Below, one piece after another: positions 5,172-21,676 of a stretch of 64,000 bases of DNA. The stretch's first letter is position 1; every line of letters begins with the position of its first letter. Below the pieces are notes generated by a model. That model was not told the origin of the DNA. It ran no database searches and was given only the letters and a program-made list of their open reading frames with translations. Made by a program: the position numbers and the translations under genes. The DNA is from Agelas oroides (Eukaryota > Porifera > Demospongiae > Agelasida > Agelasidae), in assembly GCA_949130485.1 (NCBI GenBank), contig OX422195.1, forward strand, positions 1,721,566 through 1,785,565, given 5' to 3'.

Positions 5172-8100
5172 ATGGCTGACCCTGATAAGTGGACACTCGA
5201 CTTACCTCCTGGCCCAGACTGTAGTGTGGGGTGCTCTTCAAATGAGTTTGTTTCAGAAGATGGTTCTTCATTGGCGGGGAGAGAGAATGAGGACAAGTAG
5301 GTCCACACAGCTAGTTTCATGAGTGCAAGGGATAGAGATTAAGGTTAAGTAGATCCACATAGTTTTTATACTACCATTCCTAGACCAGTGACTCCACTGC
5401 GTGGGCACAAGTTTTTATACTCCCGTTCCTAGACCAGTGACTCCACTGCGTGGGCACAAGACTACACTGGAACCCCTCTAAAGCAGACAGCATTGAAACT
5501 ATTGCTGCATGTCTGGAATATGGGAGCATTTGTATTTCAGGGGCTTCCAGTACTTCCAGTGGGCGTGTCGATGAATACTCAGGCTGTTGAGCACGATGAG
5601 GTGGCATTTCTGGACCTCTCTGTTACTATAGTATGTCTTGAAAGGCTAATACGATGATCAACAGTGTTGCCTGGTCTTTGAATTGGTACTGGTGGGACTG
5701 GGTCGAAGCTGTCCCTTTTATAGAAAATATTGAGGTGTCCGTAAGTCAGGGAGTGATTTGTACAGGCAAGCTTTGGGACCATGCAGATTTGTCCGAATAC
5801 ATGTACACACATGTAATCGTGAAGTCCACAATTAATTCAGGGGAGGGGGTTCCACTGTACGTAGGTTTAGGAAGGTCAGGGAGAGAAAACAAGGACATGT
5901 AGGACAACACAGTTTTGCCAGAGGTGGAATGTTTACAGGAGTGAGGGTAGTTTTACCCTAGGGTGTGTACGAGGCTACTGTAAAACCATGTGTTTCACTG
6001 TGGTGTGCATTAATTAGAATGTCTACCTATTGCAGGTTCTATACTTGCAACTACCAGGGGAAGATCCAGATATACATGGTACTAGACGGGCATGATGGCA
6101 CCAGGGCCTGTGAGTTTGCACAGAAGCATCTTCCGAGCGTGTTGCTGAGCAGTGAGTTGGATGGAGGGGTGGAGATGGTGGGGAGGGCCATGAGGTGGGC
6201 CTTTCTGAACACTGAAAGAGAGTTCTTCCTCGGGATAGACCCTCACATCACTCGGAAGATCACACTACAGATAGAGATTCAGGTTAGACATATGAGTAGT
6301 GACACATATATCCCACCCCTTCCCCCCCTACCCACCCACCTACCCACCCACCTACCTACCCACCTACCCACCTACCCACCTACCTACCCACCTACCTACC
6401 CACCTACCTACCCACCTACCCACCTACCTACCCACCTACCCACCTACCCACCTACCTACCCACCTACCTACCCACCTACCTACCCACCTACCCACCTACC
6501 TACCCACCCACCTACCTCAGCAAAGCTAGGTGCAATGTGTGCCTCAGTCGGTCTAAAGTCTGCCTACTACTGTGTGTGTGTGTGTGTGTGTGTGTGTGTG
6601 TGTGTGTGTGTGTGTGTGTGTGTGTGTGTGTGTGTGTGTGTGTGTGTGTGTGTGTGTGTGTGTGTGTGTGTGTGTGTGTGTGTGTGTGTGTGTGTGTGTG
6701 TGTGTGTGTGTGTGTGTGATTGTGTGGCCAAGTGGTTAAAGCACTTGACTGTCAATTGAAAGATCACAGGTTCAAGTCCCACCAGTTACCACAGGAGAAA
6801 AAAAAACAACATCTTTCTTTCTCCACTTGGCACCCAACCCAGGCCCAAGTAAGATAGTAAATTGGGAACCTGGCTTAGGCTGGGGAAGGACAAGACCACT
6901 GGCTGTGCCTAATTCCACTGAGGTACAGGTGGGACTTCGGGTGCCCACACCACAGTGGAGGGGCATAGTCAGTGCTCCTGCGAGTGCTTGGCCCGGCTTC
7001 AGGAGTTTGTCTAGCGCTCGGCCCAGTGTTCCCTGAAGTAGCGCACAGGGGTCCCAGCCTTAATTGGTCTGGGGGGGCATATCCCCATTAGGGGAGCTCC
7101 TTACATTTGTACGTGTGTGTGTGTGTGTGTGTGTGTGTGTGTGTGTGTGTGTGTGTGTGTGTGTGTGTGTGAAAACTACTTTCACCTGGCTAACAATGGT
7201 ATCTGATAATTGACCTCTTAATGGAAAACTTGTGTGTTTTCTGAAATTTCATAGTTATCCGGAATCATGTTTGAAACGGGAACTGTTTGTGTTCCATAGA
7301 AGTTAGCTTCAAATGTTAGAGATAGTTGTGTGTATCTTTTTAACTCCTCCTCCATCCCTCTTCTTCACTACCTTCTCATCTGTATTTAGCAGAAAGCCCG
7401 CAACTCTGCTGAGGCCTTGTCAATGTTCCCAGACCAAGTGGACGAGATTCAACGACTGGACAACCAGATCAAGGGAGGGACCACAGCTGTCCTGGCCATC
7501 ATCTACAACGGCTATCTCCACATTGCCAATGTGGGGGACTCACGTGCCCTCCTCTGCTACCAAGGGAGGGATGGCCACTTGCATGTGGAGCAACTCTCGG
7601 TAGACCATAAGACGAGCAACGAGGATGAGTTACGGAGGCTGGAGGACTGCGGGCTGAACCCCAATGAGCTGAGGAGACACAAGAGGCTAGGTATCCAGCA
7701 GAACACAAGGTCTATTGGTGACCACTCCATCAAGGGAGGCTACAAAGACATTGACATCATCAGGTATAATGTATGACGTCATTGAATATAACGTGTGATT
7801 TCATCAGGTGTAATGTATGATGCCATTGAGTATAATATATGATGTCATTTATGATGTAATTGTGTATAACACATGATGCCATATTTTACACCATTTTTGT
7901 CATGATTATTAACTTTCAGTTTCTTATTGCAGCCATGCTACAAGGGAGCCTGGAACAGCAGAGCCGTTTATTGCAATGCCAGTTGACCTACGGAACATCT
8001 TCTCAGGTTTTCTGGTGCTTATGTCCGATGGACTCTACGATGCGTATCAGTTGTACACGCAACGTCCAGCTTTCGTCAACCAAGACTTGGGGTACCTGAT

Positions 8101-21500: not shown

Positions 21501-21676
21501 TCTAATTGATATCGTGCATTTGTCAGTGAGGAAACACTACAGTGTCCTGGTGTAAGTCCAGGGGGAGTCCAATCGTCCCGCTGGCTTGTATGTGCTCTAC
21601 TAGAAAAGGCTCCCATTCTGTCTAGATGTGGGTGTACCGACGCACTTCCGTCCCTTGGGAGATAAACAGCAGCCAT
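15501..21676 (-). CDS. TAB1-like PP2C-fold protein, short paralogue
   Basis: Three exons on the minus strand are inferred, 21676-21215, 17267-16900 and 15864-15501, giving about 397 residues with matching phases. An in-frame stop lies five codons before the ATG. Aligned with the long TAB1 at 5172, the exon junctions in the last half are equivalent, and sequence blocks match: DDWTPPG, HPNEDRYFS (68-75), FGVFDGHDGPRA (83-94), [10 protein letters not shown] (198-207), HATDIPGTAKPYI, VLMTDGIYK and RDDMTLLIYEF. It stops just after the PP2C domain and therefore lacks the Pro/Gln tail and the aromatic TAK1-binding motif. Active-type acidic metal positions are retained. The exon 2 donor lies at the edge of a (GT)n tract of about 170 bp. 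The paralogues face each other with UBE2S between. Confidence 0.82.
16020..16165. mobile_element. Head-to-head SINE fragments with a tRNA-like head
   Basis: The first part (16030-16085) matches the reverse strand of the 3' part of the SINE at 19130-19290. From about 16088 the order flips, and GGGGGCTGGTGGTTGTCC leads into a tRNA-like A box (ATCTCAGTGGTTAGAGGC) and a decayed B box (GGATTTGATAC). This looks like two partial copies joined head to head in an intron of the TAB1-like gene. Confidence 0.4.
16456..16531. mobile_element. Fold-back mini-element
   Basis: The TAGCCTTGGTCCCAGGC left arm and GGGGCCTGGGAACGAGGCTA right arm form an imperfect palindrome of 76 bp. Confidence 0.6.
16728..16899. 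repeat. (CA)n microsatellite at a splice donor
   Basis: About 170 bp of uninterrupted CA. Read on the minus strand, its first GT is the intron donor of exon 2 of the TAB1-like gene (exon ends at 16900). Confidence 0.95.
17600..18640. repeat. Degenerate tandem repeats in TAB1-like intron 1, with a hairpin
   Basis: Units of about 29 bp built on ATGATGTAATGACACCATCA and CAGCATATACA occur at 17600-17815 and 18340-18560. They are interrupted by a 135-bp hairpin element (see 17821) and, at 18060-18185, by two copies of a repeat of about 60 bp containing CTTACAAGTTACAAGTTTAC. Confidence 0.75.
17821..17955. mobile_element. Hairpin MITE with AACAGCATG ends
   Basis: The two halves are inverted repeats: AACAGCATG, GTGCAATTTGGGATTAATAG and AGTGAATGGC on the left are answered by GCCATTCATGAGTGCTATTA, ATCCCAAATTGCATGAG and CATGCTGTT on the right. 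The centre carries GGCGAAGCC. Confidence 0.65.
18752..18905. repeat. 39-bp minisatellite, four copies
   Basis: Nearly identical 39-bp units include CACACAATCATCCACTGCTA. They produce a 13-residue repeating minus frame (LVLAVDDCVGMGS) that has no other support as a gene. Confidence 0.85.
19130..19295 (-). mobile_element. tRNA-derived SINE, minus strand
   Basis: On the minus strand, 19262-19187 reads as a tRNA-like unit: A box TAGCTCAGTGGCAGAGC, a 5-bp anticodon stem CTGGC/GCCAG, and B box GGTTTTGATTCCC. The base before the would-be anticodon is G instead of the invariant T, and the D and acceptor regions are imperfect, so it is a SINE head and not a working tRNA. Related fragments lie at 16020. 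Confidence 0.55.
19442..19515. repeat. (CAGA)n microsatellite
   Basis: About 18 CAGA units. The minus frame [12 protein letters not shown] is an artefact. Confidence 0.95.
19840..20310. repeat. Minisatellite of about 36 bp, roughly 13 copies
   Basis: Units contain TCTGCCTCTACCACAAGCTG followed by TCACAAACAGTGGGG, with length variants. It lies in intron 1 of the TAB1-like gene. Three overlapping open frames come from the repeat alone. Confidence 0.85.
20432..20822. mobile_element. Longer fold-back element, about 390 bp
   Basis: The left end AACCTCGTTTCCAGGTCTTC, with a following CCAGCTTTTGATCACTTA, is mirrored at 20760-20822 by TAAGTGATCAAAAACTAG and GGAAGGCCTGGGAATG. It belongs to the fold-back family but has a unique centre. 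Confidence 0.5.
20929..21172. mobile_element. MITE family B, copy 1 (about 244 bp)
   Basis: The ends AGCAAGAGC and GCTCTTG are inverted. The subterminal block (GAGTAAGAGCGTGTAACTCC) is answered by GGAGTTACACACTCTTACTC at the right. The interior ATTATTGAACCGTACTA is shared with copy 2 at 30785. Confidence 0.75.

Follow-up and report, generated by a model that had tools for sequence, protein, structure and literature searches.

TAB1-like genes at the locus

The window analysed here, a 64,000-nucleotide stretch of the demosponge Agelas oroides genome (assembly GCA_949130485.1, contig OX422195.1, positions 1,721,566 to 1,785,565 of the forward strand), carries two TAB1-like genes on opposite strands, a long one (L) and a short one (S), and a third copy, L', was located upstream of the window. 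In humans, TAB1 is well known as a pseudophosphatase that forms part of the TAK1 complex. All three sponge proteins retained the seven PP2C active-site residues scored in this study and, judging from these residues, phosphatase activity of L and S is plausible.

Table 1. Coordinates of the TAB1-like genes and of the gene between them (window positions, except for L'; residues are those of the encoded protein)
Feature	Position	Strand	Details
L, whole gene	5172-9583	+	Spliced gene model, four exons, 797 amino acids (798 with alternative acceptor)
L exon 1	5172..5296	+	Residues 1-41 and part of 42; NED at 5286-5294 (residues 39-41)
L exon 2	6036..6282	+	DGHDG at 6085-6099 (residues 59-63)
L exon 3	7393..7763	+	GDSRA at 7534-7548 (residues 172-176); TAB1-type stretch [14 protein letters not shown]...[18 protein letters not shown]
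L exon 4	7933..9583	+	SDGLYD at 8024-8041 (residues 279-284); LDDITL at 8213-8230 (residues 342-347); stop at 9583
S, whole gene	21676-15501	-	Spliced gene model, three exons, 397 amino acids
S exon 1	21215..21676	-	NEDR at 21475-21464 (residues 68-71); DGHDG at 21418-21404 (residues 87-91)
S exon 2	16900..17267	-	GDSRA at 17129-17115 (residues 201-205)
S exon 3	15501..15864	-	TDGIYK at 15776-15759 (residues 307-312); RDDMTL at 15551-15534 (residues 382-387)
L'	C13:1715941-1719927 (3942-7928 of C13:1712000-1721999)		~1.6 kb upstream of the window; model of 869 amino acids
UBE2S-like gene	11616..14272	+	Between L and S; Pfam UQ_con; exons 11616-11754, 12257-12334, 12411-12523, 13976-14272

The models of L and S both showed GT-AG splicing and a single open frame. 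For exon 3 of L, an equally open alternative acceptor at 7390 yields the 798-residue product. The donor of S exon 2 merges into a GT repeat, which left the donor and acceptor positions ill-defined over a few bases and gave eight open models of 391–399 amino acids; the 397-residue model retains a HATD stretch, the counterpart of HATR in L. The two introns of S have phases 0 and 2, the same as introns 2 and 3 of L, and fall at alignment columns 157 and 280 (155 and 280 in L). In the 397-residue model the stop codon of S immediately follows the PP2C domain, leaving no tail. Exon 4 of the L model continues beyond the domain into a tail of ~430 amino acids, which matched no family in a Pfam search and is probably disordered.

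L' has the same exon layout as L and is a recent tandem copy of it, with a longer PQ-rich stretch and a different C-terminus in its tail. Within the PP2C part (360 codons), L and L' differed by 19 synonymous and four amino-acid codon differences, with a ratio of nonsynonymous to synonymous rates (dN/dS) of 0.056 (NG86) or 0.074 (YN00). The tail (433 codons) showed 14 differences of each kind, with ratios of 0.27 and 0.30, respectively. The pair is under purifying selection, which is stronger in the PP2C domain than in the tail. Searches of the genome with L and S (259 Mb, 141 contigs, exon by exon, scoring the best candidates, so that the count of TAB1-like genes is a lower bound) returned no further TAB1-like gene beyond L' and no dead second TAB1 outside the cluster.

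Placement in the TAB1 clade

Family similarity was compared across PDB chains, where the six best matches of both L and S were TAB1 chains (E 4.5e-39 to 5e-64). Five of these, which we take to be human, were matched at 1.2e-58 by L and 5e-64 by S; the sixth, 2irm, presumably TAB1 of the mosquito Anopheles, was matched at 3.2e-47 and 4.5e-39. The best PP2C chain outside TAB1 gave 4e-13 over 218 residues for L and 2.5e-11 over 99 residues for S. Identity was 38% between L and S (135/355 aligned positions), 36% between L and human TAB1 and 37% between S and human TAB1.

An eight-row tree grouped L, S and the human and mosquito TAB1 at 100/100, with a corresponding inner split at only 71/72. After removal of 14 active-site columns, a 13-row tree recovered the TAB1 group, now including L', at 100/99, and separated L, L' and S from human and mosquito TAB1 at 95/97; two long rows were flagged in this tree, both outside TAB1. 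The inner split makes it probable that the duplications behind L, L' and S occurred on the sponge side. Among the proteins aligned, L, S and the TAB1 of human and mosquito shared an insert that lies after the DGH region and before the GG..AV strand; PPM1A, PPM1K, ABI1 and ABI2 lacked it. Human TAB1 (PDB 2j4o, 5nzz) further resembles the sponge proteins in the PP2C-type domain along its length, in the position of this insert ahead of the central strands, and in the stretches NEDEL..RL and TR.IGD..K.GY.D.D. On these comparisons, L, L' and S are assigned to the TAB1 clade of PP2C proteins. The initial annotation had described two TAB1 paralogues and named a placement among the PPM1 enzymes, outside TAB1, as refuting; neither phylogeny gave that placement, and the number rises to three genes in the cluster with L'.

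Active-site residues

Residues are numbered as in PPM1A. Thirty-one positions were invariant across six enzymes, seven of them site residues and the other 24 lying elsewhere. The set comprised PPM1A, PPM1K, partial sequences of the plant PP2Cs ABI1 and ABI2 (presumed names of chains 3kdj and 3nmv), and the PPM1A-like and PDP-like proteins of the same genome, the latter two labels having been assigned in this analysis. The partial row own_PPM1HJ_C4, judged to be misaligned at the E-D motif, was left out of the scoring.

Table 2. Aligned residues at the PP2C active site (D243 lies outside the seven-residue set)
Residue	L	L'	S	Human TAB1	Mosquito TAB1
E37	E	E	E	E	R
D38	D	D	D	D	D
D60	D	D	D	N	S
H62	H	H	H	Y	H
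D146	D	D	D	T	N
D239	D	D	D	E	S
D243	D	D	K	K	R
D282	D	D	D	E	D

The sponge proteins kept 7/7 site residues each, compared with 2/7 in human and 3/7 in mosquito TAB1 (Table 2). The other 24 enzyme-invariant residues were retained to a similar degree throughout: 18 in L, 18 in L', 20 in S, 17 in human TAB1 and 16/22 in mosquito TAB1, where two positions were gapped. When pooled, L and S kept 14/14 site residues against 5/14 for human and mosquito TAB1 (Fisher p = 0.0006), and 38/48 against 33/46 of the other invariant positions (p = 0.48), these p values serving as a guide only, since the compared rows are related. As the other invariant residues were kept about alike in all TAB1 rows, the difference between the sponge and the human and mosquito proteins, read from the alignment, sits in the site itself.

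All ten motifs listed in the initial annotation, five in each protein, translated at the expected places. Its claim that the metal-ligand motifs are retained in both proteins held for all seven site residues, with two reservations, namely that D243 is a lysine in S and that the column of R33 is non-basic in both L and S. Its further statement that these motifs are changed in vertebrate TAB1 was accurate for human TAB1 at five positions (D60N, H62Y, D146T, D239E and D282E, all occupied by the enzyme residues in the sponge copies) and has to be corrected for the E-D motif, which the human protein keeps (HPPEDSW). In the parts consulted, a review table agrees on human changes at D60, H62, D239 and D282 and on the missing R33 (PMC8622459). 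The mosquito chain 2irm shares with the sponge proteins the clade, the domain, H62 and D282, and differs from them at E37 (R), D60 (S), D146 (N) and D239 (S). PPM1A and PPM1K, both active PP2C enzymes, agree with L and S in all seven site residues; they differ in lacking the TAB1 insert, in having R33 and in falling outside the TAB1 clade.

An altered PPM1A paralogue was also present in the same genome, in an open frame on the minus strand of C2 (C2:3470082-3470843), alongside an intact PPM1A-like gene on C14. With the changes E37R, D146N, D239K and D243G, it is a candidate pseudophosphatase or a decaying copy. It retained 3/6 site residues and 23/24 other invariant residues (p = 0.02), a same-genome picture of a dead-looking copy.

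Predicted catalysis and its proposed loss in TAB1

We consider it probable on balance, if by no means secure, that L, L' and S are sponge PP2C proteins of the TAB1 branch with complete metal-site residues, that they carry out ordinary PP2C chemistry, and that the dead state of TAB1 arose after the sponges had split off. All three would be predicted to bind metal. D60, D239 and D282 directly, and E37 through a water molecule, would hold two Mn/Mg ions, D146 would hold a third, H62 would serve as the general acid, and the attack on phosphoserine or phosphothreonine would come from a water bound to metal. In L the domain precedes a long and probably disordered tail, and S consists of the domain alone. 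These residue roles are those of the PPM1A literature, except that the part of D146 in holding the third metal is described in the sections consulted of a further study (PMC8567228).

Several results weigh against this reading. Taken singly, none of the proteins showed a significant difference between site and other positions (Fisher p = 0.08 for human TAB1, 0.19 for mosquito, 0.29 for L and 0.55 for S), and human and mosquito TAB1 were the only non-sponge sequences of the family scored. The R33 column was non-basic in all five TAB1 rows, L having G followed by R, and S having D followed by H. This arginine binds the substrate phosphate and is not a metal ligand. According to a review, its mutation suffices to abolish activity (PMC13358185), and mutation of the matching Lys88 of PPM1H brought a more than 20-fold loss (PMC8567228). 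D243 is replaced by lysine in S, and PPM1K likewise lacks it (F at this position). The lack of R33 may not be fatal by itself, because PDP1, an active phosphatase, has N-A-P-I-E-D in this region and is also without the arginine. Pfam PP2C scores ran from 158.8 bits for human TAB1 through 113.8 for L and 110.4 for S to 75.8 for mosquito TAB1; as human TAB1 scored highest, we rejected this score as a measure of enzyme-likeness. Finally, the human C-terminal TAK1-binding motif (34 amino acids), which we confirmed in human TAB1, was not detected in the sponge proteins: shuffled sequences did as well in 604 of 2000 cases for the L tail (554 of 2000 for the motif core) and in 617 of 2000 for the ends of S, the motif possibly being too short for detection.

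The course of the decay differed between the two dead relatives. E37 was kept in human and lost in mosquito TAB1, H62 and D282 were kept in mosquito and lost in human TAB1, and D60, D146 and D239, lost in both, were replaced differently (N/S, T/N and E/S in human/mosquito). Such residue-by-residue differences fit a loss after the split from sponges, and the simplest reading of these substitutions would be a loss that was completed separately in vertebrates and insects. The data would also fit one catalytic loss that took place in the bilaterian ancestor, after which the remaining residues drifted. This alternative bears on the history beyond sponges and would be compatible with our preferred explanation; we regard it as quite possible, while leaning away from it. 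The absence of D60, D146 and D239 from human and mosquito TAB1 alike allows such a single event and speaks for it. Provided that sponges diverged before the lines to human and mosquito parted, however, parsimony places E37, H62 and D282 still in the common ancestor of these two, so that the site would not have been fully dismantled at that point.

The sponge proteins could instead be metal-binding scaffolds, holding metals and phosphorylated partners with little or no turnover, as phospho-readers or as regulatory subunits of the kind that human TAB1 is for TAK1. Poor turnover would follow from the missing phosphate-binding arginine, and the R33 column of the five TAB1 rows and the mutants cited above argue in this direction. 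We nevertheless hold this alternative to be unlikely, though deserving of serious weight. The copies share only 38% identity and yet retain every one of E37, D60, D146, D239, D282 and H62. Fold or binding by itself would hardly account for this, since the fold persists in human and mosquito TAB1 in the absence of those residues. PDP1, named a phosphatase, lacks the arginine too, and L has an arginine one residue from the R33 column.

It is highly improbable that L and S are PPM1-type enzymes rather than TAB1, in which case their motifs would be expected: although the enzyme motifs are retained, and an N-terminal piece of L of 61 residues, taken by itself, scored higher with 2i0o (another PP2C) and PPM1K than with human TAB1, they are placed in TAB1 by the matches over the full length, by the tree built without active-site columns and by the TAB1-type insert. 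Hardly credible is a loss of the ligands in early animal TAB1 followed by their regain in sponges, either by reversion or by gene conversion with an active PP2C as the donor. We found no point in support of such a regain, which would require several motifs to revert inside TAB1-like surroundings ([18 protein letters not shown]).

Beyond the preferred reading, a wider history can be proposed, which we hold tentatively and would place a little short of probable. TAB1 of the animal ancestor would have been a working PP2C phosphatase; demosponges would have kept and multiplied the enzyme, perhaps to oppose a MAP3K pathway through dephosphorylation, and in other animals it would have become the non-catalytic activator of TAK1, with the final decay taking place separately in vertebrates and insects. 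A precedent within PP2C for our preferred reading is PHLPP: according to the portions consulted of PMC12002173, the active-site residues are encoded in homologues from unicellular holozoans, and the animal form is a pseudophosphatase; an ancestral-like amoebozoan homologue is described there and in parts of PMC13358185 as active, and the animal protein as dead. PHLPP belongs to another family with other domains, and its loss is dated to the animal ancestor; that of TAB1 would be later. Our search of literature listings, with the likeliest sources lying outside it, did not turn up any description of sponge TAB1 with intact ligands. If the preferred reading is true, a switch from enzyme to scaffold becomes directly testable, with the same domain comparable before and after the loss, and it can be asked whether TAK1 scaffolding preceded or followed the giving up of catalysis. 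Alongside sponge TAB1 with a full metal site, the decay of its dead relatives can be read residue by residue.

Possible link to TAK1

Any link of L, L' and S to TAK1 is hypothetical. Human TAB1 has a C-terminal TAK1-binding motif; none was detected in L, the motif possibly being too short for detection, and S ends before any tail. Exon-wise searches of the genome with the TAK1 kinase domain and tail, one of which scored 141 of 627 candidates, gave no clear TAK1 orthologue, and one may still be present. These searches also returned many close-set kinase-domain matches on C7 (~9.0-9.8 Mb), C8 (~4.9-5.9 Mb) and C15 (~1.2-1.5 Mb), as if in tandem arrays. For another sponge, Amphimedon, passages of a 2012 study report a relatively complete Toll-like receptor (TLR) pathway, without listing TAB1 as one of the genes of the sponge (PMC3517549).

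Neighbouring gene and other observations

The gene between L and S, a neighbour that lies outside the finding, encodes a ubiquitin-conjugating enzyme (E2) of 208 amino acids with a lysine-rich C-terminus, presumably UBE2S-like. A tRNA-like stretch noticed by eye near 6730 was rejected, as a tRNA gene scan of positions 5000-22000 found none. Two GRF zinc finger matches were present in a reading frame at window positions 26237-26851 on the minus strand.

Silicateins are a mark of siliceous sponges, and a silicatein query gave 66 matches to silicatein-like exons in the genome, including clusters at C4:288397-302799 and C11:396562-435495; the exons point to a demosponge as the source. Two of the exons on C4, when translated, contained CGASYAF, the active-site form with serine.

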